Below, in pieces: positions 22,436-55,737 of a stretch of DNA of 60,532 bases. A program made the position numbers and the translations under genes. This stretch comes from Rhypophila decipiens. Taxonomy: Eukaryota; Ascomycota; Sordariomycetes; Sordariales; Naviculisporaceae. Numbering within the stretch: the stretch's first letter is position 1; the number at the start of each line of letters is the position of its first letter. The stretch is from NCBI GenBank assembly GCA_033297075.1, contig MU858262.1, forward strand, positions 1 through 60,532, written 5' to 3'. Below the pieces are notes generated by a model. That model saw only the letters and a list, made by a program, of their open reading frames with translations, ran no database searches and had not been told where the DNA came from.

Positions 22436-25378
22436 TCACCAGACACCCTCGACAGCGGCATCCCTCGAACTGCCGCCCACACCAAACTTATACTTGGCAT
22501 CTCCCTCCGTAACCATGACCCAATTCTGCTCCTCGACATCCCAATAACTCAGATCCCGTCTCGTAAGACCAAACTCGACAGTCTTCTTCTCCCCCTTCTT
22601 CAAAAAGACCTTGTCGAACCCCCGCAACACCCGTACCGGAAAGTCCACCTCGTTGCTATCAGGATAACTCATATACAACTGTGGCACAACCGCCCCGTCC
22701 TTGAGACCTGTATTCTCAACATCCACCTTGACAGTGACATAAACCTCCCACAAATCTGGGTTCCCGCCCTCAGCACCACCAGCCTGACTTAGCGGCTGCT
22801 TGGCGTTATACCCTTCCGGATACGGGTATTTCGAATCAATCAACCCCACTTCGTCCGCTGATTTTACATAAGGATAGATGTACTTCTCCAGCTTGTACTT
22901 GTCAAAGCCTTCAGGAGCAAGCACTTCCTCGATATCAGGTACCGCAGTCTCGTAACTAGGCGGTTCCGCCGCCGGAGAAGGCCTCGGCGCAGGTAACCTG
23001 CTCTTGGGCTTGACCTCGTCCACTCGTAGATTCGAATATCCAAACACGGTGTAACTCATCCCAAAGCCAAACTCGAACCTCGGCTCGACAGAATATTTGT
23101 CAAAATAGCGATAGTCGATATACAGCCCTTCTTTGAAGTCCTGCTGGGGAACGACTCCGTTGGGCGTGTACATGATCTTTGCACCGGGACCATAGTCATC
23201 AAGTGACTTTCCAATAGTGTACGGTAGATGGCCGGATGGGTTCGTCTCGCCAAAGAGGATATCCGCCAGAGCATTGCCCGACTCTTCGCCGGGGAGGTTT
23301 GCGAGAAGGACAGCCTTGACGTTGGGGAGCTCGATCCACTGCTCCATTAGCACGGGCCCGACCGAGTGGATGACTACAATGACGTCGCTTGTGCCCTCGG
23401 GACCGCACTTGGCAGAGACCTGCTGGATGAGACGGACACCTCCTTTTTGGAGATCGATGTTGGGTCGGTCGCCAGCGACGTCAGCCCACTTGGCGAATCC
23501 CTCGCCTGAGTCGGCGTTGGCAAAGACAATACAGAGTTCGAGAGAAGATAAAACGTTTTGTTCTGATGACTTGTCAAGGAGCGGGCCATCAGTAATGTAC
23601 TCGTGGAGTTCGACCTTGGACGAGTCAAACTTGTCGCGAAGGGCCTCGAGCGGGGTGACGAGGTAGGGGAACTCGACAGCGCCGGAACCCCAACCTGAGC
23701 CGAGGGTACCTTCGTTACAGCCCCGGTCTTTGCAGTAATTGGGTCCTTTGCCGGGACCGGCATCTTCGCCAAAGATACCGACCTTGAGCTTGCCAGTGTT
23801 GGCGGCGCGGTCGGCGGCTCGGGCGAGGACATTCCGGCGCAGCTTCAACATGGACTCTGTGAACCCGTGAGGGGTGAGAGGCAGTAGGGGACCTTCATTC
23901 TTGAGCAGCACGGTCCCCTCGGCGGCGACTTGACGAGCAATGATGGAGTGGTTGGCCTGGACGTTCTTGAACTGGTTCACTTCCACCTCTTCTTGCTTGC
24001 TGGGACTACCTGGGGACAAGACACCCATCTTGTCGTCTGTCCAGGAAGAAAAGTTTGGCCGGGTACGAGGGAACTTGGTCTCGTCATCTTGTCCAAGCTG
24101 ATACCATGCGGCGACAATGCGAGTCACCATGTCGTTCAACCTTTCCACCGGGACGCTACCATTCAGGACAGATTTACTCAGCTCGGGGCCCCACAGAGAT
24201 TCTCCGTTGGCCCATCTAAGACCGTCGCCAGGCATGGTCATGTCTAGCCCCGCCAGGGCCGTAGAAACACCCCCTCTTTGCGCAAGCCAGTCGCTCATGA
24301 CGAAACCCTGGAAGCCAAGTTCGTCCTTGAGAATACCATTGAGCAGCTTGCTATTCCCACAAGAGTACGAGTTGTTGACCTGGTTATACGAGCACATGAC
24401 TGATGCCACGCCCGCCTTGACAGCATCACCAAATGGCCACGCGTACAACTCGTGCAAGGTACGGTCGTCAATGTTGGAGCTCACAGCATGGGGGAGACCC
24501 CACTCCCAAGGCTGCCTAAAATGCTCCTGCTCGTTGGCAACAAAATGCTTGATGGTGGCCATGACACCCTCGCTCTGTATTCCGCGCGTGGTCTCGGCAC
24601 CGGCGACACCCTGAAGATAAGGATCCGCTCCGAAGCCCTCCCAATTCCTTCCGCCGGCGGGCATGCGCCCCAGAGGCCCGACACAAGGGCCTAGCAGGAC
24701 ATTGACGCCCTTCTCTCGGGCCTCGATAGCATGCGCCTTGCCACGGGCATACATCAGCTGCCTGTTCCAGGTCGCGCCGACTGTGATGCCCGCAGGGAAG
24801 GCGGTGATATTATCCGCGAACCGTATGCCCAGGGGCCCGTCCTGGAGCTGCAGCTGGGGAAATCCAACGTTCACTGCAGGTCCGTTGGTGCCCACGGCAA
24901 GACCCATCTGCCACCCTGTACCCGTGGTGACGTTGACCTTTTCGGCGAGGGTCATCTTGCTGACCATCTTTGCGGCTTTGGCATAGCTGTCGGCCCAAGT
25001 GCTAGCAATCCCGCCTTTCGGCGAGGGATACCACGGCGGCGACTGGCCGTAGGGAGGCTCATCTTGGAATTTTTTGTAGACAAAGGCCCCGCCCGCGGCG
25101 AGGATTATCCATATTGCTAGCCCGACAGCAAGGACGATGATGCAGCATCGGCTGCGTCCTGTGCACGGTCGCCAGAGTGACCACTGTCGTCGCGGGAGGA
25201 AGGCTGGCTTGGAGGCGGGGGATTTAAACGTAAAGGCTTCGCGGTCGAGAAACTCGGTGGCATCGAGGTCGGACTCGAAGTCGGAATCGTGATCTTCCTT
25301 GTCAGAGGAGCGGCGGCGGTGGCTGTCGGTCTGGGAATGAGCGCCGAGGAGCCCTCGGGCACTTGGGTCCTGAGCCAT
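22436..25378 (-). CDS. beta-glucosidase, GH3, type II membrane form (bglE-like)
   Basis: A single exon of 980 residues starts at ATG 25378 (an in-frame TTG upstream was ignored). The N-terminus is an acidic/basic cytosolic tail of ~78 residues. A single membrane span follows at about 79-101 (CCIIVLAVGLAIWIILAAGG), so the catalytic part faces the cell surface or secretory lumen. GH3 marks are KHFVANEQE, VMCSYNQVN and the nucleophile region GFVMSDW with D363. The second domain contains NADSGEGFAKWAD (probable acid/base Glu) and PGEESGNALADILFG, followed by PRFEFGFGMSYT. A C-terminal fibronectin III-like domain ends the protein. The architecture matches Aspergillus bglE-type enzymes. It likely hydrolyses short beta-glucosides or cell-wall glucans. 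Confidence 0.93.
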   Translation of the reverse strand: MAQDPSARGLLGAHSQTDSHRRRSSDKEDHDSDFESDLDATEFLDREAFTFKSPASKPAFLPRRQWSLWRPCTGRSRCCIIVLAVGLAIWIILAAGGAFVYKKFQDEPPYGQSPPWYPSPKGGIASTWADSYAKAAKMVSKMTLAEKVNVTTGTGWQMGLAVGTNGPAVNVGFPQLQLQDGPLGIRFADNITAFPAGITVGATWNRQLMYARGKAHAIEAREKGVNVLLGPCVGPLGRMPAGGRNWEGFGADPYLQGVAGAETTRGIQSEGVMATIKHFVANEQEHFRQPWEWGLPHAVSSNIDDRTLHELYAWPFGDAVKAGVASVMCSYNQVNNSYSCGNSKLLNGILKDELGFQGFVMSDWLAQRGGVSTALAGLDMTMPGDGLRWANGESLWGPELSKSVLNGSVPVERLNDMVTRIVAAWYQLGQDDETKFPRTRPNFSSWTDDKMGVLSPGSPSKQEEVEVNQFKNVQANHSIIARQVAAEGTVLLKNEGPLLPLTPHGFTESMLKLRRNVLARAADRAANTGKLKVGIFGEDAGPGKGPNYCKDRGCNEGTLGSGWGSGAVEFPYLVTPLEALRDKFDSSKVELHEYITDGPLLDKSSEQNVLSSLELCIVFANADSGEGFAKWADVAGDRPNIDLQKGGVRLIQQVSAKCGPEGTSDVIVVIHSVGPVLMEQWIELPNVKAVLLANLPGEESGNALADILFGETNPSGHLPYTIGKSLDDYGPGAKIMYTPNGVVPQQDFKEGLYIDYRYFDKYSVEPRFEFGFGMSYTVFGYSNLRVDEVKPKSRLPAPRPSPAAEPPSYETAVPDIEEVLAPEGFDKYKLEKYIYPYVKSADEVGLIDSKYPYPEGYNAKQPLSQAGGAEGGNPDLWEVYVTVKVDVENTGLKDGAVVPQLYMSYPDSNEVDFPVRVLRGFDKVFLKKGEKKTVEFGLTRRDLSYWDVEEQNWVMVTEGDAKYKFGVGGSSRDAAVEGVW

Positions 25379-26435
25379 GATGGCCAGGCTGTTTTTATTG
25401 ATTATCAATAGCGAGTCGGTACGGTCTGGGTCCGATCTAGGCTGGCATCGCTAAACGTGGAATATGGTAGCGGCGGAGTGGTGTAGGATCGTTCCGGTTG
25501 TCGGACGGTGACCTCGGGGCCTCACAGCTCAAACGAGCCTCCCGGTCCTGTTGCTGCGAAGGTGCGCAACAAGTTCAACCACAGCGGACGGCGAAATGAA
25601 ACAGGATGGTCAATATGCGATGCGACAAATACAATTCCAGAATATACAAAAATTGCAGAACAGAAAGAGCGACGAAAAGACGAGACAAAACCCTCGAGCA
25701 AGACAACATGAAGAAGCAATGAACAGTAGCCAGGCGACAGTTTGTCTTGGCAGTCAAGTGGAAGTGTCTGGCAGCGCCCCATTGGTGGCAGCTGCCATGA
25801 AGGCCCCACAACGCGGGAAGCCGGCTCCGGGTCATTTAGTGGATCCACCTGACAGCTCTCGTCTTTCCGACGGGACCACGTCACACACGGCGGAGACTCG
25901 CAGTAAAAATTCAAGAATCGCGTCCTTGGACTTGATCTTCTCCATCTTCATCAAACGGTCCTCTTTTTCGGGGCGCGCTCCAGTCTCTAGTGTAGACTGT
26001 CCTGGATCAGAAACTCCATCCTTGCGGAGCCTAGGGTGCGGATCAGGGATGGATGATCGGGTTAGGGTTGACAGTGCGATGGAGCCAAGACCGGCATAAT
26101 CCGCCGCCAACTCGACGCGATTCCGGTCGCAACCCCTGAAGTGGCGGGGACCCCTGAAGCATGAAGAACCGAGCCTCTAGGGAAGCCATCACGACACCTT
26201 TTCTTTCGACCGGCAATTGAACAATCCCTAGAAATCTTGGTATGTCATGTACTAAAGTTGACTGGACAGTATCCGTATTCAAGGGCTAATTTTGACGCCT
26301 TTTGCGATCGCAGCCACAGACTGTCATCGCACCATTCCGAGAGTGTTGCAGCCAACGGCCCTTGACCAAAGTCCGAACCACGGATCCCGAAACCTGACCT
26401 GACCCCTCGGTGAAGGAGCAAACACACAAGCCAAA
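25379..26435. other. intergenic between divergent GH3 and coactosin genes
   Basis: A shared ~1-kb promoter region. A telobox-like GGGTTAGGGTTG lies at 26059-26070, ~370 bp upstream of coactosin. No extra gene is convincing. Confidence 0.6.
26059..26070 (+). promoter_or_regulatory. telobox-like element
   Basis: GGGTTAGGGTTG holds the TTAGGG core. Such short telomere-like motifs are known in promoters of growth-related genes. Here it lies upstream of coactosin. A single site is weak evidence. Confidence 0.3.
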
Positions 26436-27103: not shown

Positions 27104-28228
27104 CTAGTTCGCACCCATGACAGCGTCACTGGACTCCCTCCGGCCAGTCTCCGGGCTCGGCGTCGCAGCCGCTGCCTTGTCCTCGGGCTCGGCATATGGC
27201 CTCTCGGCCTGGAGCTTCTCAATGTCATCCCAGTCTTGTCCCGGGTTGCACTCCCTCCAGCGGAGCCACTTGAGCAAGACATAGAATCCACACGCCAATA
27301 TGGCCCCGAGAGCCGGACCTACCCAGTAGATCCAGAAGTATCCCGGGAAGCTGCCGTTGACGACTGCTGGGCCAAGAGACCGGGCAGGATTGAGCGAGCC
27401 GCCCGTGAAGAAGACACCTGAGGTAGATAATTTTGTCAGCACGTTTCGTCTTCTCGCCATATCCCTCTCTAACTTACCAACCAGCTCGGCCAAAGTAAAA
27501 GCCACACCGATGGCTACGGGTGCAAGATAGGTGGACTTGTGTTTCTCGACCGCAACCATGATAATCACAAAGACCAGCTCGGCCGTCAAGAACATTTCGA
27601 TGAACAGGCCTTGCACGACGCTGGCATTTCCTCCCAAGGTGGTATTAACTGCCAGTGGCCCAGGGAACAGACCTGAGACGACGCCCGCGGCGGCGATCCC
27701 CCCCAGCAGCTGCGCAATGACGACTGCGATGCAGCGGGTCGCTGGGAGGCCGCCTACCAGGAAGAGGGCGAGAGTGACCTGACCATCAAGCTCGTCAGTT
27801 TCATGCTTATCATAAGGCGTTTGATTATGTAAAGGGGTATATGTACTCACACAGGGATTAAACAGGCCACCGGTAACGCGATAAAATGCCCAAACATTGG
27901 CCATGAGACTGAGCCCAAAACAAAGCGAGATAAATGTCACAGTCGTCGGGTCAGGTGGGCTCCCAGGCGAAGCTGCCACAGCTGCGGCAGACATGTTGGC
28001 TACCTGGGTCCCGGCAAAGGCAAAGAATAAAAAGAGAAAAGTGCCGACGAACTCGCCAATCGCTGCTACGAGGTTGTTGCGGATTGTCGAGGGGAGGGTG
28101 AGCATAGGCAACGGGCCGGATCCTGCTCCTGGAGCCCCATTTGTGGCTCTGGCTAGTCTGCTGGTTGAGCCCTCCCCTTCTTCAGGGGCAGCGGCGCTGG
28201 AGGGAAAGCGGAGGTTGGTCGGTCGCAT
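27104..28228 (-). CDS. aquaporin (MIP family)
   Basis: Three exons (28228-27851, 27778-27478, 27417-27104) join to 330 residues; introns are 72 and 60 bp. Six helices and two half-helices are visible. The first pore motif reads FNPC-VT with N124-P125-C126 directly at the intron, instead of NPA. The second is GGSLNPARSLGP with N236-P237-A238. The tails are short, which fits an orthodox aquaporin rather than a long-tailed aquaglyceroporin. GFYVLLKWLRW marks the last helix. It would conduct water or small neutral solutes across plasma or internal membranes. The C-terminal ~50 residues are charged and cytosolic. Confidence 0.9.
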   Translation of the reverse strand: MRPTNLRFPSSAAAPEEGEGSTSRLARATNGAPGAGSGPLPMLTLPSTIRNNLVAAIGEFVGTFLFLFFAFAGTQVANMSAAAVAASPGSPPDPTTVTFISLCFGLSLMANVWAFYRVTGGLFNPCVSTYTPLHNQTPYDKHETDELDGQVTLALFLVGGLPATRCIAVVIAQLLGGIAAAGVVSGLFPGPLAVNTTLGGNASVVQGLFIEMFLTAELVFVIIMVAVEKHKSTYLAPVAIGVAFTLAELVGKLERDMARRRNVLTKLSTSGVFFTGGSLNPARSLGPAVVNGSFPGYFWIYWVGPALGAILACGFYVLLKWLRWRECNPGQDWDDIEKLQAERPYAEPEDKAAAATPSPETGRRESSDAVMGAN

Positions 28229-33666: not shown

Positions 33667-35854
33667 ATGGAGGTTGTCGAAAAGCAGGCCAACACCTCGC
33701 TCGGCCAGGGCGTGGGCTATGGCATCGTCCTGGGTCTGGGTGCCTTTTTTGCTTTGGGTAAGTCGTGGACTATTCACTACTACTATGGAGAGGCCTCAAT
33801 CGCTGACTAACATGGCTGTCAGGTATGATTGGCGTCACATTCATCCTCAGGCGTTACAACCGCGAGCTCCAGACCTCCGAAATGTTCAACACGGCCGGTC
33901 GAACAGTCAAATCTGGGCTGGTAGGCTCGGCCGTCGTGTCTTCGTGGACATGGGCGGCCACCCTGCTCCAGAGTTCGGGCGTCTGCTATCGATACGGTGT
34001 CTCTGGGCCCTTTTGGTACGCCTCGGGCGCGACGGTTCAGATCTTGCTCTTCGCCACGCTCGCCATTGAGCTCAAGAGACGTGCTCCCAACGCTCACACC
34101 TTCCTCGAGGTCATCCGGGCCCGATACGGAACCATTCCTCATGTGATCTTTATGATATTCGGACTCGTTACCAATATCTTAGTGTCGCTCATGCTCATCG
34201 TCGGTGGTTCGGCCACGGTCAATGCGCTCACGGGAATGCACACCATTGCTGCCATCTACCTGCTCCCCGTCGGTGTCGTTGCCTACACCCTCGTTGGAGG
34301 ACTCAAGGCCACCATCCTGACGGACTGGATCCACACCTTCATCCTGCTGATCATCATCATCGTCTTTGCTCTCAGCACCTATGCCTCGTCCGACCTGCTT
34401 GGCTCGCCCGGTGCTGTGTACGACAAGCTCGTCGAGGCTGCTCTCCGACACCCGGTCGAGGGCAACAAGGGAGGCAGCTACCTGACCATGCAGTCGCGTG
34501 AGGGTGCCATCTTCTTCGTCATCAACATTGTCGGCAACTTTGGCACCGTTTTCCTCGACAACGGTTACTACAACAAGGCCATTGCTGCTTCTCCCGTCCA
34601 CGCCCTTCCCGGCTACATCCTCGGCGGCCTGTCGTGGTTCGCTATTCCTTGGCTCACTGCCACCACCATGGGGCTTGCTGGGCTCGCGCTTGAGACCTCG
34701 CCTACTTTCCCCACCTACCCCGACCGCATGCCCGATGCCGATGTCAGCGCAGGACTTGTCCTCCCTTATGCTGCTGTTGCTCTCCTCGGCAAGGGTGGCG
34801 CCGTTGCGACGCTCCTGATCGTCTTCATGGCCGTCACGAGCGCTACCTCGTCGCAACTGATCGCTGTCAGCTCCATCTGCACCTACGACCTGTACCGGAC
34901 CTACTTCAATCCCAAGGCTGCTGGCAAGAACCTCATCTACATGAGCCACGTCATCGTCGTGGCCTATGCCCTGTTCATTGCCACCTTCTCGGTTGGTCTG
35001 TGGTATGCTGGCATCTCCATGGGGTACCTCTATGTCATGATGGGCGTCATCATCTCCTCGGCCGTGCTTCCGGCGACGCTCACCTTGGTGTGGTCTGGTC
35101 AGAACAAGTGGGCTGCCGCTCTTTCTCCAGTTCTCGGTCTAGCTACTGCGCTTATTGCCTGGCTCGTCACTGCCAAGAAGGATTGTGGCTCCCTTAGCGT
35201 CGCTTGCACTGGATCCAACAATCCCATGCTGGCTGGCAACGTTGCCGCTCTGCTTTCCCCCGTCGTCTTTGTGCCCGTCTTCTCCTTCGCCTTCGGGCTG
35301 CAAAAGTACGACTGGAAGTCCATGTTGGAGATCAAGAAGGGTGACGATCACGACTTGGCTACGGATGCTGGTCTCGACTTGGAGCAGATCCCCGGTGGCC
35401 ACGAGGAGACCGTCATGGAGTTTGAGGAGGAGCAGGCCAAGCTGAAGCGTGCCAGCTTTATCAGCAAGACAATGACCATTGTCATGGTAAGTTTATTCCA
35501 CTCTCTGACTTTTGCCACGATTATCCAACACTAACCTTTTGTCTTCAGACTCTTGCCTTCCTTGTCCTCTGGCCCATGCCCATGTATGGCTCGGGCTACA
35601 TCTTCAGCAAGCCCTTCTTCACCGGTTGGGTCACGGTCGGCATCATTTGGATCTTCTGTTCCTTCTTTGGCGTCGGCTTGTTCCCCGTCTGGGAGGGCCG
35701 CAAGAGCCTGGCGCGCACGTGCAAGTTCATCTACCAGGATCTTACCGGAAAGTTCAACCCCAAGGCCATCTCTGCTCACGAGCCCGTCGTCGCCACCTCT
35801 CCTGGCGATGTGACTCCCGAGAAGGGTGCCAAGGAGGAAGTCACAGCCCACTGA
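33667..35854 (+). CDS. dur3: urea active transporter, sodium:solute symporter family
   Basis: Three exons (33667-33757, 33823-35486, 35549-35854) give 686 residues. Introns of 65 and 62 bp have GTAAGT donors; the first has a CTGACTAAC branch. The SSS signature is clear: RRYNRELQTSEMFNTAGR, then VKSGLVGSAVVSSWTWAATL and GPFWYASGATVQI, with about 15 spans. DNGYYNKAIAASP and MAVTSATSSQLIAVSSI are typical of fungal and plant DUR3. It imports urea with proton or sodium coupling at the plasma membrane for use as nitrogen. The C-terminal tail is cytosolic and charged. Regulation by nitrogen supply is suggested by the upstream GATA pair. Several DUR3 paralogues are usual in fungi. Confidence 0.93.
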
Positions 35855-42293: not shown

Positions 42294-44105
42294 TTACTCG
42301 TTGTTGTCAACCTTGGCACCTATTTTATCCAATATCTTGTAATGATCCACACCCCAAGTATCACACTCACTCCCCACCAGATCCCTGACCCATTGTCCCC
42401 GAGGCTCAATGCGACACTTGAACGGCAGGGGCTTGGTCACAACGCCGTCAGTCCCTTCCAAATCCACCTTGACTGGACTTCCACCATTGTCCAGCTCAGG
42501 CGTGACATCAAACGCCCACAGCAACCTGGCCATGGCAATCCACAAGCTGTTTCTTCCAATGTGGCGGCCTGGACAAATCCTGCGCCCGTATCCAAACCCA
42601 GGTGCTCGCTTCCACTCGTCACTCTCACGTATTGCCTGACTCATGAACCTCTTGGGAACAAACTCGTTGACATCATACTCTTGCCCAAATACCTCCTTCT
42701 CGCGCGTGATACTCCAAGCGTTAGCCACAACTACCGAGTTGGCCGGAATCTTGTATCCCTCGTACGTGCCCTCGACTTTGGTAAAATGCGGAAACCCCTG
42801 GGCTCCCGCTGGCCTCCATCGCAGGGCCTCCTCCATGATGGCGTCGATATAGACAAGCAGTCCGGCCTCTTTATCATCAAAGCTCGGGAGTCTCTCGCGT
42901 CCGATGACTTTGTCCAAGTCTGCTTGTGCTCTCTTCACCCAGCTCGGCGTTTCGCCATCTGCAGAAGAGACAACCCAGGCCAGCAGAAACCATACCAAGG
43001 TGCCGGATGTAGCATCCAGCGCTGCATCGGCCATGATGCCAATATTCAGGGCTAGTTCTTCATCATCCATTTCCAAGGTCTGTGATTCCTCTCCTTTCAA
43101 GTCCACCGCCGTGTTGGCAATTCCCACGGAGGAGACCATTCCATCCAGAGCCCTCTTCATCTGACGACTGACATTCCAACAGCCCTTCCCGGTGCCTCCA
43201 AGGTTCAAACCCCTAGCCAAATTCCCCAAATGCAAACCCCTCTGCCGTTCCCAATACCTTTCCGCATCAACCTTCCACTGCGTCATGAATCCAGGCAAGA
43301 ATCGCCCGAACTTATCACAGAAAGTAGCAAGGGCTGGGAAAGCATCGACCAAGTACCGTCCAGGTTGCGCAAGAGCGTCAAATTCGTGATTCACCGCGTG
43401 CGCCTCCACCAGAATTTCATCCGAGGCATCTCGAACTCGATATCCGTAGAAGAGGGTGTAGACGGTGCTTGCTATTGTGCGCTCTACGGCCCCGTGAGGA
43501 TCAATTGGCTGTTCAGAGTCGGAGAGCAGATCCCAGAGCAACTGTCGACTCTCGACCTCTTGGATGTCCGTGTAAGCCTTTGCAGCGCGAATCCCTAGCA
43601 CAGGGGCTTGCAATCGCTGACGAAGCTTGAAGCGCTCGTTATACGGGCGCAAAAGCATGTGGTAGCCTTTGAGGGCGGTCTCACCGGCAACGATTAGACG
43701 AGGTCGGTCGGAAAATGCGGCACCACGTTTCGAAAGCAGGTCGTGGGCTGCGAGGGAGGTGCTCAGGACGATGACGGATTGTCCTGCCATGTTGAGGTGC
43801 ATTATCCCGGGCCCGCTTCCACTTTGCTCAACAGAACTACTAGCAGGCGTCTCCGCCGACTTTTCATTGTTTGTTTGGACGCCACTGGTATTGGTGTAAG
43901 TCTCGCTCCATCGGTGGTATTGCAGCCAAGGATAGGACTTGGGGGCTTGGTGGAGATTTCCTATGATGGGAAGAGGAGGCGGGCCTGGCGGGAGTGGGAG
44001 AGAGGAGTTGGATGATGGCTGCCGGCGCCGGGAGAGAAAATAAACAGCGGAAAGTATGATGGAGCCAAGGGATAGCACGGCAGAGAGAAGTACAGAGGAG
44101 GACAT
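42294..44105 (-). CDS. cytochrome P450 monooxygenase
   Basis: A single exon of 603 residues starts at ATG 44105. The N-terminus has a membrane anchor (VLLSAVLSLGSIILSAVYFL) and the Pro-rich hinge LPLPPGPPPLPIIGNLH. The I helix reads IMADAALDATSGTLVWFLL, the ExxR motif is in MEEALRWRP, the PERF-like motif is FVPKRFM, and the heme loop is FGYGRRICPGRHIG with ligand C511. It is an ER-bound class II enzyme of the group-I-like type common in secondary metabolism. A ~30-residue Ser/Thr/Asn-rich insertion follows YHRWSETYTNTSG, near residues 72-105. It is divergent with the methyltransferase 1.6 kb away. It probably oxidises the prenyl-indole product of the nearby fusion enzyme; this is inferred from position only. 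Confidence 0.92.
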   Translation of the reverse strand: MSSSVLLSAVLSLGSIILSAVYFLSRRRQPSSNSSLPLPPGPPPLPIIGNLHQAPKSYPWLQYHRWSETYTNTSGVQTNNEKSAETPASSSVEQSGSGPGIMHLNMAGQSVIVLSTSLAAHDLLSKRGAAFSDRPRLIVAGETALKGYHMLLRPYNERFKLRQRLQAPVLGIRAAKAYTDIQEVESRQLLWDLLSDSEQPIDPHGAVERTIASTVYTLFYGYRVRDASDEILVEAHAVNHEFDALAQPGRYLVDAFPALATFCDKFGRFLPGFMTQWKVDAERYWERQRGLHLGNLARGLNLGGTGKGCWNVSRQMKRALDGMVSSVGIANTAVDLKGEESQTLEMDDEELALNIGIMADAALDATSGTLVWFLLAWVVSSADGETPSWVKRAQADLDKVIGRERLPSFDDKEAGLLVYIDAIMEEALRWRPAGAQGFPHFTKVEGTYEGYKIPANSVVVANAWSITREKEVFGQEYDVNEFVPKRFMSQAIRESDEWKRAPGFGYGRRICPGRHIGRNSLWIAMARLLWAFDVTPELDNGGSPVKVDLEGTDGVVTKPLPFKCRIEPRGQWVRDLVGSECDTWGVDHYKILDKIGAKVDNNE

Positions 44106-45681
44106 GGTTCCTGGGATGGATGAGTATGGTCGCTCAAGACTGGACTGAACGGCGTGGGAGAAAATGGATTCTTGCTTCTTCGGCGTCCCCTTTATCCTCA
44201 GGCCGAATGTTGTGGCCAAGGAACAAGATTGCTCATAACATGTCTGACGTGGACTAGATGTGGCTATAAAACAGACCCACCTCTCAACGAAATAGGAAGG
44301 GAAGTACGGCTTGATGACCTTGTAGGATTCACCATATGCGCCAACCACCCGCCCATGGACCAGCACGTGAGTAAGATGACCAGTAAAGAGAGCAATATAA
44401 GACCTTGTCATCTTGGCTTATGGCTGTTGACAAGGTACCTGCATATAAGCAGGACACCAACTGCATCGACAGGTTTGTTGATCTTGATCTTGAGCTGCCG
44501 TTTTGTTCTATGTTGGCGTCGGTACTGCGCGGATTCTAGTCTTGGATGGAGATACAGCATTCTACGGTGAATAAAACATCGAAGAGCGTTGATGAACTAT
44601 AAACAGGCCCTTTACAAGCCAAGTAAATGCATTGTCTCTACAATAAAAACGCATTAGCAAAGTCGCTGGCAGGCCTAGCAACCTTGTTTAACAAGTGTAC
44701 AACTTGCCTATTCACTGTAGAATACTGTAAGCCTGGCCAGAAGCGAGCTGCAGAACCTTATTACATCGCAAACTAGAAAACTCCGTTATTGGCAGATTGC
44801 CTGGTTGTCTCTAAGGCATTTCTTTCGTCACCGTGCGGTTTTGCTATCCGATTGACTTGCACTGGTGCCTTGGATATAGATAGAGCTCCTAATACGGGTT
44901 AGTAAACCAAGGAAGGTTGAATTCATTAACTTATTCCAGGCTATTTTACTTTGTTAAAGCACTGTAAACCAATGGAGGTTTTAGCATTCCTTGGTCCCTG
45001 ATTCACAGCCTCTAACCCTATCCCTTGTGCAGACGGTCCTGGACCAAGGAATTAAGAGGAGGGCCAACCTTGCTTTACTCTAGCCATTTTGTTTTGGCCT
45101 TTGCTTTGCCCTCCTTTACTTTACTTTGGCCTTGGCTTGGTTGTCTTAAGGACCGAAAGGTGCAGCACCGCCGCTGGCCAACATAAATGGCCGGCGCTCG
45201 ACCCGAGTTGGTACATTCTATCTCCGTAGCTTCTTCTTAGCCCCATAGGGACTTATCATAGCATTTCCCCTCTTATGGGAAGCCTATGCGGGCCTTGGCT
45301 CTGCATATACGTATTCGTTTATGGCTCGGATAGGTCGGATGGGGTTCCCGGGCCGGCTGTTCAAAGGTACGTTCTAATTATTGTGCGCGATGCTATCCCG
45401 TCATTAGCTAGCTGCCGCTGGCATGTCAAACCCAAGTAGTAACTGCCTCTACAACACCCACAGCATCGCTAAAAGTCCCATTTGGAGCATTGACTTGCAT
45501 ATGTGGCTGGGTCCTACATGAAGCCGGTGAGGGGTGCTTGCCTCCCTCTACCCCTTATATACCGCGGCGGAGAGGACATTGCCGTCTAATACTGTCCAGA
45601 AGCACTCTAGGAAGTGTTAGATGCTCCAAGTAATTCATCAAGAAATAAAAGGCCACCCTACAAGTCAGAGCCTTGGCTATA
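44106..45681. other. divergent promoter region of P450 and methyltransferase
   Basis: A 1.6-kb non-coding interval. It contains a TA-flanked MITE-like element (44555-44727), a 12-bp inverted repeat ATTCCTTGGTCC / GGACCAAGGAAT with a ~48-bp spacer near 44988-45060, and TTTACTTTACTTTGG-type repeats near 45110. No gene was found. Confidence 0.55.
44555..44727. mobile_element. mariner-type MITE (173 bp, TA duplication)
   Basis: The left end CAGCATTCTACGGTGAATA and the right end, read in reverse complement as CAGTATTCTACAGTGAATA, are 19-bp inverted repeats with three differences or fewer. Both ends are flanked by TA (44553-44554 and 44728-44729). CAG ends and TA duplications are typical of Tc1/mariner-derived elements. 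No coding capacity. Confidence 0.65.
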
Positions 45682-46548
45682 ATGTCGAGGCAATCACGCT
45701 CAGCGACGGTCGGTTCATACACCTTGCCCTCTCATCTCGATGGGGACGGTCGCCGTCTGAACCAGCAACACGAGGTCTTCCAGTTACGGTTCTCGTCAAA
45801 CCTCATCACCACAAAGTCTCTTCCTGCGGACTTTTCGGGAACTGTTCTCGACATCGGTACGGGCACCGGTATCTGGGCAGCCGAGTTTGCTGCCAAATAC
45901 CCGGCATCTTCGGTCCTAGGGATTGATCTCTTTGCACCATCCATCACCCCGGTTCCCGCCAATTGCCGCTTCCAAGTGTTAAATGTTGAGGATATTGACG
46001 ATGATGGGAAAATCCTTGCCCACGGAACCTTCGACATCATTCACACCCGGATGGTCTTTTGTGTTCTCCGCCACGGGCGGAAAGTCTTGCAGATGTGCTT
46101 CCACGCTCTCAAGCCGGGAGGGGTTGTCGAGTTCCAAGAGAAGCAAGACCCTTACCGGAGTGATGATCCAAGCGCGGAAGCTCAGGACACACCGCTTTTG
46201 AGACATGGACGACTGCGCACCAAAGCAGCTATGAACTGTGGGCTGGATCGAGCCGTGGCTAACAAAGTGCCAGGTTGGATGCGGGAAATGGGTTTCAGTG
46301 ACGTTCAAGTGAAGGAGTGGAAGATACCAATTGGCGAGTGGATGGACGGTAGAGACATGAAAATTGCTGGGCAAAAGTTTAGGGAGTGTCTAGAGTGGGG
46401 AACGCTGGGAATATGCAAGAGTGTTTTCATGGAAGGCCTGGGCTGGAGTGAACAGCAGGTCTTGCACAATGTGACGGATACCGTCGAGGATCTTGGTAAT
46501 GGCCGTGTTTACATGCTGGTTTTGGTCATTTCTGGGACCAAAGTTTAG
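45682..46548 (+). CDS. SAM-dependent methyltransferase, LaeA-like
   Basis: A single exon encodes 288 residues from ATG 45682. Before the core, RRLNQQHEVFQLRF is the marker stretch of fungal LaeA-like/TAM-type methyltransferases. Motif I is VLDIGTGTGIWAAEFA from residue 55, followed by SSVLGIDL (acidic residue for the SAM ribose). FDIIHTRMVFCVLRHGRKV and the post-motif ALKPGGVVEFQEKQD follow. Family members act either as tailoring enzymes or as global regulators of secondary metabolism. Inside this small cluster an O- or N-methyl tailoring step is the simpler guess. A start 9 bp upstream would need TTG. Confidence 0.87.
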   Translation: MSRQSRSATVGSYTLPSHLDGDGRRLNQQHEVFQLRFSSNLITTKSLPADFSGTVLDIGTGTGIWAAEFAAKYPASSVLGIDLFAPSITPVPANCRFQVLNVEDIDDDGKILAHGTFDIIHTRMVFCVLRHGRKVLQMCFHALKPGGVVEFQEKQDPYRSDDPSAEAQDTPLLRHGRLRTKAAMNCGLDRAVANKVPGWMREMGFSDVQVKEWKIPIGEWMDGRDMKIAGQKFRECLEWGTLGICKSVFMEGLGWSEQQVLHNVTDTVEDLGNGRVYMLVLVISGTKV

Positions 46549-47829: not shown

Positions 47830-50715
47830 ATGGCTATCACCAGTACTTCTGGAGCCCCCCTCCAACCACCGGCCCATTTTGCTCTTGTTGTCAGGTCTCT
47901 CCCAAAAGTTACGGCTGAGGACCGTGACAAGATCCTCAAGGATGTCGAGTACAACGTCTTTGCCTTTCCCGCCGGCCTTTTGACGTGTGACTTTCTCTCA
48001 GACTCGGGCACTTCTGCCATGACTGATTTTCAGTGGGCAGCCGTAATGCGTGGAGACGAGAGTTATGGCCGAAACTGGGGGTACTACTGCCTGCTTGAGG
48101 TTTTCCGGGACATCTTTGAGCGAGGGAGTCAACATCAGCAACGTGCCATCCGAGACGTCTTGGCTGGAACTGTCGCCCCCATGAGTGAGGCAGACTTCTA
48201 TCGGTCCAGGCTCCTGGGATTAGCCTCTCAACGCGGCTTTGTCAATGGCGGCCACCATCAACTAGCTCGACCCAACTTCTTCATCGTTCCCCAGGGACGC
48301 TGTGCCGAGACATTGCTCTTCTCCACCATGAGCTCCCTCATTGCTCGGGAGAGACAAGACCCTGCCCCACGCTCGCCCGTCATCATCAGCAACGGCTTCT
48401 TCGACACCACCGGAGCGAACGCCAAGGCGGCTGGGTTCGAGTTGCAGACCTTTACTCAGCCAGGCTTGACTGACCCCTTCCCCCAAGACCTCATCGGCAA
48501 GGAGAACAACTTTAAGGGGAATCTCGACTTGGAGGCGACCCAGGTCTTTCTGAGCAACAACGCAGGGCGTGTCAGTATGCTACTGCTGACCATCACAAAC
48601 AACTGGGCCGCCGCTCAGCCCGTGTCCATGACCAACATCCGAGGCGCGGCCTCCCTTGCCAGAACCTTCAACATCCCATTCTTCTTCGATGCATGCCGCT
48701 TTGCCGAAAACGCTTACTTCATCCAGCGGTATGAGGATGGATATGCCAACGTCGATATCCTCGACATCGTCAAGGAGATGTTTTCTTACGTTGACGGATT
48801 CACCATCAGCCTCAAGAAGGATGGGCTAGCCAACATGGGCGGGGTTCTCTGCTTCCGCGACGAAGGCGTCTTTGCCCAGCGGTACCAAGGAGTCGGCATG
48901 CTTCTCAAGGAGAGCCAGATCCGATGCTACGGTAACGACTCGTATGGCGGCATGAGCGGACGAGACCTGATGGCGGCCGCGGCGGGTTTATACCAAGTGA
49001 CCAAGACGTCATACCTCGCCAACCGTATTACTCAGGTCCAACATTTCGCCGAAAGGTTGCTGGCGGAGGGCATCGCTGTGCTCTCTCCGCCCGGTGGGCA
49101 TGCCGTCTACCTCGATATGGATGCCTATTTCTTTGGATGCGCTAGGAAGCCAGAGGATTTTGCGTCAGCGGGTTTTACCATTCAGCTTATCCGAGACCAT
49201 GGAATTCGGGCGGCCGAGGCTGGGCCCTTTGGCTGGGAATATGATCTAAAGGCGGCCGACGATCCGGAGCGCGCCAAGATACCCAACCTGGTGCGGTTTG
49301 CTGTGCCTCGCAATGTCTACTCGGACGAACATATCAGTTACACCGTCGCTGCGATCAAGGACTTGCATAAAAGGAGGCATACCGACATCCCGAATGTTGT
49401 CATTACCAGGGGTAAAAACATGCGCCTTCGTCACTTTTCTGCAGGTCTCAAGCCCATCATGCCAACAACAACTACCAAGGGAGCCTGGCTGGATGAGGCC
49501 CAAAGGTCACTTGGAAATCTCTTCCAAGCAGTCGGACTTGACCAAAATGGGAGAAAGGAGCTGTCCAAAGCCCTTACAGTCGTCATGGGCGCCTGGGGTC
49601 AGACCCCCGTTGAACAATCTTCTTCCTGGACATCCAGTGTGGGCAACGATGGCTCCCCGATCGAATTTTCCGTTGCCGTGGATCCCACCACAGGCGAGGC
49701 AGAGCTTCGACTTCTTGCCGAGGCGCAACCAAGTCCCTCTGACAAGACGAACAACAACTTGAACCATCTCTGGGCCCGTCTCAGCTCGGCCGCCCTGAAG
49801 CTCAACGATACCATCTCGGCAGAATACAAGCCTTCCATCTCGTTGGCTCGATTTTCCCAAATCCGGGATCTCTTCCTGCCTTCCTCGCTTCCCGCCGACA
49901 AGCAGACGATAAAACTGGCAGCATGGCACAGCTTTGCCTATTCGGCACGCAAAGGTCCGCAATGGAAGCTTTACCTCGACCCTTCCAACGCTGCCGATGG
50001 CTACACCGCCCTGTCATCCACTCGCGAGGCCTTCACCCGTCTTGGGCTGTATTCTGCATGGAAAAGCGTGGAATCCATCCTCGGACCGTCCGATTCGGTG
50101 GTGTACTTCTCGCTGGATCTGACTGGGAAAGTCGACAGCAGTGCGCGGGTCAAGGTGTACATGGCTCATTCTGTGGACAAACAACAAATGACGCCTGCAA
50201 CATTTAGATCACAAGCTGCCATCATCGCAGACAAGCACGCCAAACTGTGTGGGCACTATCCAGAGAGTATCCCAGTAGACGGGTATGAAATCCAACGCTT
50301 CATCGCGGCAATGTCAGGCCCGGATTTCGACAAGACAGACTTGGATCTTGGCAATCGGAAACCGCTGCTCAGCTGCTTTGCTTTTACCACAACACGCAGC
50401 GATCGAGAGGCCCCGACAGCGGTGCTAGCAAACACAACAGTCCACTTCCCCATGGATGCATATGTCCCAGATGACGAGGAAGCCCATCGACGGACCGAGG
50501 CGTACTATTCAGCATCTGCAAACGAGGCAAAGGATATATATAACAAGGTCCTAGGTGCCGTGCAGACGAGACCTCTCAACAAGGCCAAGGGCATCCACGC
50601 TTGGGTGAGTTTGAAGCAGAATGTCACTTCCAAGACGGGATCCGATGATACGAAGAAAGGAGCTGGGGTGGAGAATACCTTTTACTTTTGTCCCGAGATC
50701 CTTGGAGGGAAGTGA
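47830..50715 (+). CDS. tryptophan indole-lyase / aromatic prenyltransferase fusion
   Basis: One intronless exon encodes 961 residues. Residues ~1-541 form a fold-type I PLP lyase of the tryptophanase/tyrosine phenol-lyase family. FFDACRFAENAYF has D287 for the pyridine N, and ISLKKDGLANMGG has K330 as the PLP lysine. The C-terminal RLRHFSAGLK has H535, the histidine typical of tryptophanase where tyrosine phenol-lyase has Phe; the phenol-lyase Arg before the GxF segment is Ala here. Residues ~550-961 match the DMATS aromatic prenyltransferase fold: SPIEFSVAVD with E612, WKLYLDPSN with K713/Y715, YFSLDLTGK, ARVKVYM with R773/K775/Y777, TVHFPMDAYVPDDEEA and HAWVSLK. Expected chemistry: L-Trp to indole, pyruvate and ammonia, then transfer of dimethylallyl (or a longer prenyl) to indole. 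It is cytosolic, without signal peptide. Prenyl length and position are unknown. Confidence 0.9.
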   Translation: MAITSTSGAPLQPPAHFALVVRSLPKVTAEDRDKILKDVEYNVFAFPAGLLTCDFLSDSGTSAMTDFQWAAVMRGDESYGRNWGYYCLLEVFRDIFERGSQHQQRAIRDVLAGTVAPMSEADFYRSRLLGLASQRGFVNGGHHQLARPNFFIVPQGRCAETLLFSTMSSLIARERQDPAPRSPVIISNGFFDTTGANAKAAGFELQTFTQPGLTDPFPQDLIGKENNFKGNLDLEATQVFLSNNAGRVSMLLLTITNNWAAAQPVSMTNIRGAASLARTFNIPFFFDACRFAENAYFIQRYEDGYANVDILDIVKEMFSYVDGFTISLKKDGLANMGGVLCFRDEGVFAQRYQGVGMLLKESQIRCYGNDSYGGMSGRDLMAAAAGLYQVTKTSYLANRITQVQHFAERLLAEGIAVLSPPGGHAVYLDMDAYFFGCARKPEDFASAGFTIQLIRDHGIRAAEAGPFGWEYDLKAADDPERAKIPNLVRFAVPRNVYSDEHISYTVAAIKDLHKRRHTDIPNVVITRGKNMRLRHFSAGLKPIMPTTTTKGAWLDEAQRSLGNLFQAVGLDQNGRKELSKALTVVMGAWGQTPVEQSSSWTSSVGNDGSPIEFSVAVDPTTGEAELRLLAEAQPSPSDKTNNNLNHLWARLSSAALKLNDTISAEYKPSISLARFSQIRDLFLPSSLPADKQTIKLAAWHSFAYSARKGPQWKLYLDPSNAADGYTALSSTREAFTRLGLYSAWKSVESILGPSDSVVYFSLDLTGKVDSSARVKVYMAHSVDKQQMTPATFRSQAAIIADKHAKLCGHYPESIPVDGYEIQRFIAAMSGPDFDKTDLDLGNRKPLLSCFAFTTTRSDREAPTAVLANTTVHFPMDAYVPDDEEAHRRTEAYYSASANEAKDIYNKVLGAVQTRPLNKAKGIHAWVSLKQNVTSKTGSDDTKKGAGVENTFYFCPEILGGK

Positions 50716-51211
50716 GAAGGCTTCAGTTCGTGGGATGGGAAAGAGGGTATAAATGGCTTTTCAAGTCCTCATATTTTAAACATATAGCACTTTTCACAGA
50801 TACATCCAAGAAATGGAGAATACGCATAAGACAGTCGTTCTTGGCGCCTACACAATGGCGTGCATATAATCAAGTGTGTCATAGGGCACCTGATTCATCA
50901 AAAGCCGCGGATAGGCGAAGCCTGACTCGTTGGCCCAGCATCCCTCGGGTTGCCATCAAGACACCAGCAAGGACCTCCCATGCTCTCCACGTGGTTTCGG
51001 ATCCAGGTCCCCACCCGTTTCTGGGTCAAACATGGCTCCAACACCATGCCACGGCCGAGTTTCGGGAATCTCGGGGCTCGTGTTTCGAAATTTCTCTGCA
51101 TCCGTTTTTAACTTCGTCCAGGCTAGCTCAGGCCGTCTGCCCATACTACCATACACATGTACCTTACCTCATGTCGAAATACTCGGAAGAAAACAACACC
51201 AAGAAGAAGAG
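50716..51211. other. intergenic between fusion gene and regulator
   Basis: 3' region of the fusion gene and promoter/5' leader of the Zn2Cys6 gene. Open frames here only extend the regulator frame without better starts. Confidence 0.55.
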
Positions 51212-53989
51212 ATGGAGCCATCTCCGCAGCAGCAATCACAGCAAGCACCGCCAACACCGGATGACGTACCCTATGACACAGCACTGGTCAGCGAAATCCT
51301 GAAAGCCAAGCGAAAATCACGCGGCATCAAGTCGTGTTTCCCGTGTCGCCACCGCAAAGTGCGCTGTGATGGCGGCATCCCCTGCTCCAACTGTGTCCGT
51401 CGGGACCATGCCTCATTGTGTCGAACGGCGGTGCCCAATTCCGCCTCTGGCACCACAGGCATGCAGTCAACGTCTTCTCAGGCTCATCGGCCGAGTGCGC
51501 CATCGATCGATTTGCTCATGAACCCAGTTACCAGCGAAAACCGCATCTCGCCACTCTCGGGAGCCGACTTCTTCCAGGGAACAACAGCTCATGGCATGAG
51601 CCAGTGCCAGTCACCAGCAGCCCAGCAGGGCGGAGGATTTCCGCCAACTCAAACGTTGCCTGGCTTGGCTGATATTCAATCCGTCTCATCGCCCTTCTCA
51701 TCATCGGAGCTTGGATGTCAGGATGTTCAGCACACCATCAGAGGACTCGAGAAGATCGAAGAGCAAATAGCCACGCTCAAAGCTGAGCTGCTCGGGCGAC
51801 GGCATGGATATGACACGCAGTCTACACCAGCAGCGTCGTTTTATGGCACTGCCACGCCTCCCAACCACCACGAACCTCTGACTCAGTCCACCTCGTCCAA
51901 ACGCCGATGGGGGAGGAGGTACATTGAAGGGGCGAGCGGCGCCGCCATTTTCCTCGGAGGACGAGCCGATCCTCCAGCTACCCTGGGATGTCATGACGAC
52001 CCCACGCCTCGCTCGACCGAAGACGCGCTTCACCTCGACAACATCATGCAGCCCGAATATTTTGCTCCCAGGACTTACCCCTTCACCAACCTCTGGACAA
52101 CTGAAGCTAGCTTACCGGATGTGTGTAGAACGCTGCCGCACAACTCGGATATTATACGGTATTGGCAGGCATTCGAGACGTATGTCTTTCCGTTTTACCC
52201 AGCTTTGGTAGCACTGGAGGAGTTTCGATCATCCATGTTCATGTTCCTGGGGCGACGATCTACGGCGGCTGCACCCAACACCAGCTCGGCATCTCCGTCG
52301 TTTGTGGAAACAACAGACCCTTCATGGCTGGCGCTGCTGTTTGCCGTGTTGGCCTGTGGAGCCCAGTTCTCTGACGACGCGGCCAAAGAGCGCGATCTGA
52401 GGTCAAAAGTCTTTAGTATGTTACTTTTTCCCGACAGAGTTCATGTTTCATGAGACCGACAGGATTAACAATACCAAGTCTGCTCTTCCTTCCAATGCCT
52501 CCGTACGGCCAATCTTTTCCACAAGACGGATATGAACCAGATCCAGGCCATGGCTCTGGTGGGGCACTCGTTGAGGAACAACCTCGAGACAAACAGCGCC
52601 TGGATCTTCATGGGTAAGTGACACCTTGTCTGATACTAGACTTATCCACACTGACAGCGTCTCTTCAAGGCACTACCCTCCGTCTGGCCCAGAGCATCGG
52701 TCTTCACGAGGCAGCTTCCATGCCTGTGCCAAACCAGCTTGACGAAGCGCAGGAGCGCCGCAAACGACAGGCCAAACATCTGTGGTACTTTTTCCCGCAC
52801 TCCCCATTCTCGGCGAAGCCGTCCACACGCCTAACGTCCCATTTTTGTTTCCGACAGGTGGACTCTAGTATGGCAAGATACCCTCCTCAGCATAACCTAC
52901 GACCGACCAACCACGTCAATCTTCACCACCACCGCCTGGACGGTCCCTTACAGCGCGTCCAGTCCCCCGTCGAACCAATGCCCCGAGCACAAACCGAAAG
53001 GCTACACCTTCGCCGAGGCAGTCTTTCACGTCTGCCAGATCCTGCTCGACCGTTCCAGACAAGAACATGCCACGGGTCCTTTGCAGTCCGGCACCCCAAG
53101 AACGGCCGAGATTCTCGAGCACAGCAAACGCCGCCTGGAACTGACCGTCCAGGAAGCAGCACCCTACTTCCGGGACGAGGCGTACTGCAAGACGATGCAA
53201 GAACATCTCGAACGACTAGCGCTGCAAATCCACGTTTCGTACGCAGCTTGTGCCATTTACCGGCTCTGCCTCGATCGGAACAATGGCACGTCAGGAGCAG
53301 GGTCCGAGCCGCCGCCTGCACCGTCCAACCCATCGGGCTACAAATGTCCCTGGAGCAGGGCAAAGCTCAAGGAAGAGTACATCGCCCACGCAGCCAAAGC
53401 AGTGCGCAGCTTCCTGGACATGTATCGTCTTTCGCCCAACGTCTGTCGCTCATGGGCATTCGTGCACAACGCAGTCAGCTGCGCCGTCACAGCAAGGAGG
53501 TTTCTGCCCGTTGTTCCGCAGCTCAATCCTGCTCCGCCGCCGCCGCCACCTCCTCCTCCCAGCCTGCCATCCGTCTCGAGAAGCCCCGGAGAGGCGCATC
53601 TAGGGCTGCTCCCCTATGACAGACGATCGAGCACCACGTCGGCGGGGATATCCAACCTCTTGAACAATAATGCCAGCACCAACACGAATACGGCCGCATT
53701 AATACCCATGCCAACGATGCAACAAGCTTCACATGCACCTCCCCCAACGACGACGACGACGACGACGACAACAACAACAACAAGCAACCCGTTCAGCACA
53801 ACCAGTAGTAACCACGAGTTCGAGAATCTAATCAGCGAGCTGATCACTGTGCTTGAACGGGAGGAGAAGCAGTCGGAATGGCGCGATGCGGATACGAATG
53901 TGCGCTATTTCGGGCCTTACTCGAGGGCACTGGGGTCGCTGAAGGAGACGTACTGTCAGGCTGGGTCTGGGTTCAAGGGCTGTTTCTAG
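51212..53989 (+). CDS. Zn(II)2Cys6 transcription factor, probable cluster regulator
   Basis: Four exons (51212-52415, 52479-52613, 52670-52784, 52858-53989) give 861 residues. The binuclear cluster is at 42-70: C42, C45, C52, C58, C61, C70 (CX2CX6CX5CX2CX8C) inside RKSRGIKSCFPCRHRKVRCD. A coiled linker (RGLEKIEEQIATLKAELLGR) follows. The fungal_trans (PF04082-like) domain has FPFYPALVALEEF, MALVGHSLRNNLETNSAW, GTTLRLAQSIGLHE and HLWWTLVWQDTLLSITYDRP. Low-complexity Pro8-9 and Thr11-12 tracts lie near 660-760. Intron 2 has two usable acceptors 12 bp apart (after 52657 and 52669); the later was chosen because it restores the family consensus. It follows the fusion gene by 0.5 kb and probably controls it. 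Confidence 0.9.
53746..53783 (+). repeat. (ACG/ACA) trinucleotide repeat in the regulator
   Basis: About seven ACG and five ACA codons in a row encode a poly-Thr tract. Length variation would be in frame. Confidence 0.85.
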
Positions 53990-55038: not shown

Positions 55039-55737
55039 CTACCCATTCCAAGGTAAAACCTCCTTCTTCTCCTCCCCATTAACAACAACAGGCTCGGTCC
55101 CAATCAAGAAAAAAACCAACCTCGCCCACTCGGTATCACTCGGGTTCTTCCACCGATGCAGTGTCCCCCTCTGCACCAGCACATCACCAACCTTGAGCCG
55201 TCTACTCTCGCCACTCTCAAGAATCATATCCATCTCCCCTTGCATCACAACCCCAAAATCAATCGTCTCTGTTCGGTGGAATTCCAGCGTCGCCCCAGGG
55301 GCCCAGTCGCAGTATCGAACTAGCGATTCACCCGGCTTGGGGAACCACACCCCTGGATTGGGCGCTGTCCGGTTGGCATTGGCTGCAATGGCTTGGATGT
55401 CGGACTCGGAGGTCATGTTGGGCGGTGTGGTAAAGGTTTGGTAGGCATCGAAGACGACCATGCCGATTGAGCCGTAGGCGGGTACCTCGACTGGGAAGGC
55501 TTGGGTGGAAGGGAAAAAGACTGCTTGGCCGGTTGAGGTCGAGTGGGTGGTTGTGTGCCGACGGGGAGCACCCAACGGAGAGGAGATTTTGGGCGGTTCT
55601 GGGTTTTCGGTGGATGGCATTTTGATACCCGGGTGCAACGAGGGTTTGTTATGGAATGGGTAAAAGGCTCGACAGTAGGAGTGGGTTGTGGCTAGCACGA
55701 TGGTGAGGGTCAGGATAAAGTTGGAGATGGACTTCAT
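55039..55737 (-). CDS. secreted cupin-domain protein
   Basis: A single exon of 232 residues starts at ATG 55737. A signal peptide or anchor begins it (ISNFILTLTIVLATTHSYC). The C-terminal half is a single cupin: PGATLEFHRTETIDFGVVMQ gives the first motif with one His, and VGDVLVQRGTLHRWKNPSD gives the second motif with its His. Before it, FPVEVPAYGSIGMVVFDAYQ resembles the N-terminal part of fungal cupin_2 proteins often found beside secondary-metabolite genes. The function (isomerase, dioxygenase-like or binding) is open. It converges on the tRNA and lies ~1 kb beyond the regulator; cluster membership is possible but unproven. Confidence 0.8.
   Translation of the reverse strand: MKSISNFILTLTIVLATTHSYCRAFYPFHNKPSLHPGIKMPSTENPEPPKISSPLGAPRRHTTTHSTSTGQAVFFPSTQAFPVEVPAYGSIGMVVFDAYQTFTTPPNMTSESDIQAIAANANRTAPNPGVWFPKPGESLVRYCDWAPGATLEFHRTETIDFGVVMQGEMDMILESGESRRLKVGDVLVQRGTLHRWKNPSDTEWARLVFFLIGTEPVVVNGEEKKEVLPWNG

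Follow-up and report, generated by a model that had tools for sequence, protein, structure and literature searches.

The window, the whole 60,532-nucleotide stretch of Rhypophila decipiens DNA analysed here (contig MU858262.1 of assembly GCA_033297075.1), carries a gene that joins a tryptophanase to a DMATS-type aromatic prenyltransferase (PT) in one protein. We consider it reasonably probable, on sequence grounds, that this fusion serves fungal secondary metabolism as a bifunctional prenylindole synthase, in which prenylation precedes cleavage. The C-terminal DMATS domain would prenylate the indole part of L-tryptophan (Trp), probably with a dimethylallyl group, and the N-terminal pyridoxal phosphate (PLP) domain, its ring wall opened, would then β-eliminate the prenylated tryptophan, giving prenylindole, pyruvate and ammonia. 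The protein would add a new two-domain enzyme to those of fungal secondary metabolism and offer a genetic way into the prenylindoles of fungi, and perhaps those of liverworts.

Two enzyme domains in one chain

The frame (47830-50715, + strand; Table 1) runs without interruption from ATG to TGA over 961 codons, with a complete tryptophanase at residues ~17-543 and a complete DMATS-type PT at residues ~549-961 of the same chain. In the AlphaFold2 model (mean pLDDT 88.2, pTM 0.88) both domains are folded with confidence; when the model was compared with solved structures, tryptophanases covered residues 17-546 and bacterial Trp prenyltransferases residues 546-961. Moreover, a full-length relative from Rhypophila sp. 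PSN 637 (P0002) is 88% identical to the fusion and collinear with it, with small indels solely past residue 642; thus, a hidden intron at the domain junction is not required. Sequence and predicted structure confirmed that the gene encodes a genuine single-chain two-domain protein. The initial annotation had proposed one open intronless frame holding a complete PLP lyase (D287, K330, H535) and a complete DMATS-type domain (E612, K713, R773, K775, Y777); frame and residues were found as it had described them, the Beta_elim_lyase and Trp_DMAT profiles both matched, and structure prediction gave the two folded domains.

The N-terminal half matched Pfam Beta_elim_lyase over residues 54-505 (E 2.6e-48) and passed the NCBIfam tryptophanase model PRK13238/NF009709 (459.4 bits, cut-off 285). 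Since the narrow TnaA equivalog models TIGR02617 and NF053783 stayed below their cut-offs (274.5 vs 825.8 and 307.7 vs 750 bits), this half is a divergent member of the tryptophanases and no TnaA equivalog. In the alignment with E. coli TnaA, D287 corresponds to D227, K330 to K270, H535 to H463, Y79 to Y74, D192 to D137 and R489 to R419. The fusion lyase carries the PLP lysine, D137, H463, R419 and Y74 (E. coli numbering), and the tyrosine phenol-lyase residue set, given as T/M/M/R/F (PMC5805759), is absent. D137 is described as contacting the indole NH in solved tryptophanase complexes (PMC11301627). Indole- and phenol-lyases are reported to differ at five residues beside the indole ring, which are D137, F304, V394, I396 and H463 in E. 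coli (PMC5805759), and their equivalents in the fusion are D192, N369, A462, A464 and H535. In nine relatives (P0040, P0046, P0050, P0063, P0064, P0069, P0078, P0082 and P0085, eight of them named Colletotrichum) His463 is replaced by Val and the PT residues are mostly intact. Since the H458A exchange in the Proteus tryptophanase is reported to lower kcat on L-Trp to 1.6% (PMC11301627), these fusions may, by analogy, cleave plain Trp poorly.

The C-terminal half matched Pfam Trp_DMAT over residues 553-781 (E 1.5e-9; 38.2 bits, gathering score 25), which takes in profile positions 5-245 of 357 only, and a search of PDB sequences carried the match on to residue 930. The NCBIfam DMATS subfamily model TIGR03429 scored 80.8 bits, under its cut-off of 163.85. 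Structure comparison of the model found the prenyltransferase barrel fold, with bacterial Trp 5-/6-DMATS, PriB, CymD and IptA as the top fold neighbours, and most of the closest solved structures are L-Trp prenyltransferases. E612, K713, R773, K775 and Y777 are conserved in the fusion family and in the aligned bacterial DMATS; we take E612 to be the general base at the indole NH, and K713, R773, K775 and Y777 to bind the diphosphate. The fusion PT thus has the fold and the conserved E, K and R-x-K-x-Y in common with bacterial Trp DMATS (IptA, SCO7467, PriB, CymD) at 20-26% identity, but only in the fusion is the PT joined to a lyase. Canonical fungal DMATS (FgaPT2, DMATS1) share the superfamily fold but are much further away, at 13-16% identity in the fold search. 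Note that the query genome has a canonical fungal DMATS as a second gene (locus L006, G000:C145:51815-52978, + strand; Pfam 213.7 bits), and that nine other proteins (P0171, P0198, P0200, P0209, P0213, P0218, P0224, P0226 and P0235) join a DMATS to an iron-containing haem-oxygenase-like domain (PF14518).

Both domain families are known, and bacteria are known to pair them as two genes; as a single chain they seem to be unstudied. We found no description of a tryptophanase-PT fusion in the literature searched, outside which most subscription papers lie, and this agrees with the earlier statement that no characterised fungal enzyme of this architecture is known. A word search of the available main text of a published survey on the diversity of tryptophanases, in which fungal genes from Colletotrichum, Podospora and Metarhizium are discussed, returned nothing beginning with 'prenyl' or 'fusion' (PMC8537960).

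The lyase ring wall and the order of the reactions

As the initial annotation had stated, some bacteria encode a tryptophanase beside a DMATS as two genes. In a survey of 40 DMATS loci from GTDB genomes, a tryptophanase lay inside the examined stretch at 17 loci (Actinomycetota, Myxococcota and Cyanobacteriota); together with two plasmid loci this gives 19 DMATS-tryptophanase pairs, all in separate frames and with the PT gene first in 17. A first scan of genome contigs, with one Streptomyces DMATS as the query, had found no relatives. In the Type A ipt cluster of Streptomyces sp. SN-593, IptA is described as prenylating Trp at C6, with a tryptophanase gene in the same cluster, and the cluster as responsible for 6-dimethylallylindole-3-carbaldehyde, with 6-prenylindole as the likely intermediate (PMC3617294). 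A Trp-type DMATS is thus paired with a tryptophanase for prenylindole, as proposed for the fusion, and most Type A members examined have Ala or Gly at ring position 394 (E. coli numbering, used throughout this section), as do most fusions with an intact PT. However, the Type A tryptophanase is a short-form enzyme placed elsewhere in the tree than the fusion lyase, and since the fusion is one frame and not two genes, it is a variant of the Type A system rather than a member. Five further open frames of ~790-1380 aa (G1222:C153, G1143:C155, G1147:C266, G1170:C662 and G1180:C341) have tandem tryptophanase-family matches and are apparently fused double lyases.

Among the fusions themselves, the residue at 394 follows the state of the PT. 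The family set comprises 75 fusions, taken as the proteins of 780-1030 aa among the 120 best of 871 scored matches. PT integrity was scored on six residues (E612, R627, K713, R773, K775 and Y777), all kept by 53 fusions; the changed-PT class of 22 takes in rows gapped at a scored site. At 394, Ala occurs in 38 of the 53 intact-PT fusions vs 2 of the 22 changed-PT fusions, of which 12 have Phe and 6 Ile. Among the 16 stand-alone fungal rows, 10 have Phe and none has Ala, and 11 of the 12 Lokiarchaeal and metagenome rows have Cys. Of the variable tryptophanase columns, 394 is the one most strongly associated with PT state (first of 253 by phi, first of 460 by mutual information), and it is again first within the fusions alone (of 179 and 413, respectively). 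Independent pairs drawn from fungi and bacteria, leaving out 2 loci that were already included as pairs and 5 rows of the tyrosine-phenol-lyase type, gave a mean of 7.9 for the association, 0 against and 4.1 without difference (median p 0.008). The changed-PT fusions (22/75; for example P0019, P0027, P0035, P0038, P0041, P0045 and P0053) often have R773E or K775G, and mostly have bulky residues in the ring wall; possibly they are paralogues with a decayed PT. Position 396 was also tried as a marker, being Ala or Ser in 72 of the 75 fusions vs Leu in all 12 Lokiarchaeal and metagenome rows, but was rejected with a phi rank of 27 of 253.

For bacteria, we fixed a prediction before the test: DMATS-adjacent tryptophanases should have Ala or Gly at 394, and the others not. 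In the earlier bacterial set the counts were 20 of 21 DMATS-linked vs 0 of 33 unlinked enzymes (independent pairs: 3 for, 0 against, p 0.25); one search made before the prediction had fetched 40 of the 47 places above the cut-off. The test loci came from 61 of 67 places (3 were in the earlier set and 3 partial), from 7 of 9 places (2 earlier) and, for the remaining 37, from a third search, which contributed the 30 best-scoring given as loci and 7 picked by hand. Both DMATS-adjacent rows of the third search's phylum were hand-picked, and one of these, a duplicate, was dropped. Setting aside 10 tyrosine-phenol-lyase-type loci, 5 others and 1 uncounted for a gap left 89 tryptophanases with a readable residue among the 105 loci. 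Ala or Gly was present at 394 in 30 of 37 DMATS-adjacent enzymes vs 2 of 52 others, a count that a DMATS lying beyond the ~1.5 kb flank of loci L133-L197 would escape. With four rows dropped for an identity of 98% or more to members of the earlier set, and three near-identical pairs inside the test set kept, the counts were 26 of 33 vs 2 of 52; the Fisher p of 2.5e-13 overstates the evidence, because the linked rows sit in clumps on the tree. Loss of His463 was rejected as a marker of a prenyl-Trp lyase, since among the test rows with a residue at this site one other than His was found in 3 of 33 that were linked and in 5 of 52 that were unlinked.

From these comparisons we infer that the ring pocket of the lyase has been widened for prenyl-tryptophan. 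The simplest reading of the 394 pattern is that the lyases must admit a prenyl group, and prenylation would thus come first. Since a small residue at 394 is seen in the short form of bacteria as well as in the long form of fungi, this would be convergence, if the reading holds: two lineages would have arrived at the same solution, and one residue marking PT-coupled tryptophanases in fungi and bacteria would be a testable marker of their substrate.

A number of points weigh against prenylation first. In the fungal data, the size classes and the rule for an intact PT were fixed only after the data had been viewed, and 394 is one among five published ring residues. Cys occupies the position in 8 of the 53 intact-PT fusions, as in most Lokiarchaeal enzymes. 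Independent pairs within fungi and Lokiarchaeota, under the Ala/Gly rule, gave 4.9 for, 0 against and 4.1 without difference (median p 0.0625), and pairs within the fusions alone about 3.5 for and near 0 against (median p 0.125). On the bacterial side, the clumping of the DMATS-linked test rows reduces them to 2 independent pairs, which are uninformative, and Val at 394 is retained in 7 of the 33. Neither His463 nor 396 parts linked from unlinked bacterial enzymes, 396 being Leu in 14 of 19 DMATS-linked rows. Finally, in the available text of the Type A report, the tryptophanase step in bacteria is deduced and not assayed (PMC3617294).

The initial annotation had placed the steps in the opposite order, with the lyase cutting L-Trp and the PT capturing the freed indole before it diffuses; the end product would be the same prenylindole. 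Every tryptophanase residue required for plain L-Trp is present, a fusion would sensibly hold a diffusible intermediate, and DMATS enzymes often tolerate other indoles. However, a lyase pocket that is wider where the PT is intact is not predicted by this order, the solved structures nearest to the PT are mostly Trp prenyltransferases, IptA among them, and the bacterial precedent is described as prenylating L-Trp (PMC3617294). Indole first was thus left unsupported, and we regard it as unlikely.

It is improbable, in turn, that only one half works, the PT being inactive or acting on an unrelated aromatic, so that the protein would function as a tryptophanase whose tail is degenerate. The changed or missing PT catalytic residues in 22 of 75 family members, the partial Trp_DMAT match and the unreached DMATS subfamily cut-off would fit this; in the R. 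decipiens protein the conserved DMATS residues are in place and the PT barrel is predicted to fold. A lyase running in reverse, which would build tryptophan (or a ring-substituted form) from indole, pyruvate and ammonia for the PT to prenylate, seems very improbable. The reaction is reversible in principle, the Blastocystis tryptophanase is reported to favour the conversion of indole to tryptophan (PMC8448343) and an earlier tree sets Sordariomycete tnaA beside Blastocystis (PMC8537960), but fungi synthesise Trp normally and have no evident need of it, and the bacterial pairs are tied to prenylindole and not to Trp supply (PMC3617294). Prenylation followed by cleavage remains the reading we prefer.

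Distribution and origin of the fusion

Judged by its domain matches, the fusion architecture is widespread and not confined to the R. decipiens genome. Both Pfam domains were present in 72 of the 120 best-scoring proteins, query included; their presence in 71 of the 119 others, from many sources, rules out an artefact of annotation or assembly. Database names for these proteins are merely 'putative Tryptophanase' or 'beta-eliminating lyase'. Among the sources named are Sordariales (Podospora, Triangularia, Cladorrhinum), Xylariales (Xylaria, Hypoxylon, Rosellinia) and, further, Colletotrichum, Metarhizium, Clonostachys, Diaporthe, Lentithecium and Corynespora; outside Ascomycota, the best 120 matches take in one liverwort, Riccia sorocarpa, and one basidiomycete, Mycena pura. 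In Riccia the fusion (P0037) sits on a contig of 31.9 Mb and matches 99% of the query at 52% identity, and the liverwort also has a relative with the lyase alone (P0076), on a contig of 52.3 Mb; contigs of this size disfavour simple fungal contamination. Prenylated indoles are reported in Riccardia, a liverwort genus distinct from Riccia (PMC10096483), and transfer of the fusion from fungus to liverwort, if true, could help explain liverwort prenylindoles.

In the tryptophanase tree (74 rows, Blastocystis not among them) the fusion falls in a long-form clade (support 100) whose members come from eukaryotes, Lokiarchaeota, metagenomes and, with one sequence, Fusobacterium, and all 19 bacterial DMATS-neighbouring tryptophanases fall outside it. 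The nearest named prokaryotic proteins among the best 120 matches are Lokiarchaeal, at 51-54% identity. The other long-form enzymes (Butyricicoccus 8sl7, and the Lokiarchaeal and fungal stand-alone proteins) differ from the fusion in standing alone, and the Lokiarchaeal and metagenome relatives in having Leu at 396 (12/12) and Cys or Val at 394. Fungal stand-alone tryptophanases are interleaved with the fusions, and thus the PT half has been lost, or omitted from gene models, more than once.

In the PT tree (73 rows) 18 of the 20 fusion PTs form one group (support 95) together with 4 stand-alone Daldinia PTs, and two Metarhizium fusion PTs lie off the main group with an unresolved branch placement; a single origin of the PT half is therefore likely, short of proof. 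The Daldinia PTs (P0128, P0136, P0146 and P0151) are nested among the fusion PT domains, which suggests that their lyase half was lost or split off. The canonical DMATS of the query genome is remote from both the fusion PTs and the bacterial rows, with an end branch of 4.85 changes per column.

By these trees the halves differ in source, a long-form tryptophanase nearest to Lokiarchaeota and a bacterial-type DMATS, and the fusion partnership therefore probably arose independently of the actinobacterial operon. Direct descent from that operon was unsupported, since the 19 bacterial pairs are all separate frames with tryptophanases elsewhere in the tree. A broader picture, which we hold tentatively and somewhat short of calling probable, is that prenylindole synthases of this single-chain kind, which occur widely in Dikarya and also in a liverwort, were assembled independently of the Type A operon, act PT first, have a lyase wall reshaped as in the bacterial pairs, and see this wall reclose where the PT decays.

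Genomic neighbourhood

The fusion gene and its neighbours plausibly form a small secondary-metabolite cluster, with a cytochrome P450 and an S-adenosylmethionine (SAM) methyltransferase as candidate tailoring enzymes, a candidate Zn2Cys6 regulator and, further along, a cupin (Table 1). P450s resembling the two query P450s were found near 3 of the 19 bacterial pair loci vs 1 of the 23 other DMATS loci, and we claim no bacterial P450 link.

Table 1. Positions in the window of the fusion gene, its domains and key residues, and neighbouring genes
Feature	Position	Strand	Basis or remark
Tryptophanase-prenyltransferase fusion, whole gene	47830..50715	+	One open frame, 961 codons
Tryptophanase (PLP lyase) domain	47878..49458	+	Residues about 17-543; profile, PDB-sequence and structure matches
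D192 (E. coli D137)	48403..48405	+	Alignment
K330 (E. coli K270), PLP lysine	48817..48819	+	Alignment
A462 and A464 (E. coli V394 and I396), small residues by the indole ring	49213..49221	+	Alignment
H535 (E. coli H463)	49432..49434	+	Alignment
Short interdomain linker, residues 544-552	49459..49485	+	Predicted model, end of last lyase strand to start of first PT helix
DMATS-type PT domain	49486..50712	+	Residues about 549/553-961; profile, PDB-sequence and fold matches
E612, conserved DMATS glutamate	49663..49665	+	Alignment
K713, conserved DMATS lysine	49966..49968	+	Alignment
R773, K775, Y777, conserved R-x-K-x-Y	50146..50160	+	Alignment
Cytochrome P450, candidate tailoring enzyme	42294..44411	-	Pfam PF00067, 153 bits; putative pathway link
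SAM methyltransferase, candidate tailoring enzyme	45673..46548	+	Pfam PF13489, E 1.8e-17; putative pathway link
Zn2Cys6 regulator (first exon or exons), candidate cluster regulator	50930..52453	+	Pfam PF00172, E 1.6e-6; putative pathway link
Cupin, further along from the fusion gene	55039-55737	-

Elsewhere in the window, and without evident link to the fusion, are genes for a HET-domain protein (18590-21280, - strand), a family 3 glycoside hydrolase (22436-25408, - strand), an aquaporin-like protein (27104-28228, - strand) and a sodium:solute symporter (33825-35534, + strand).

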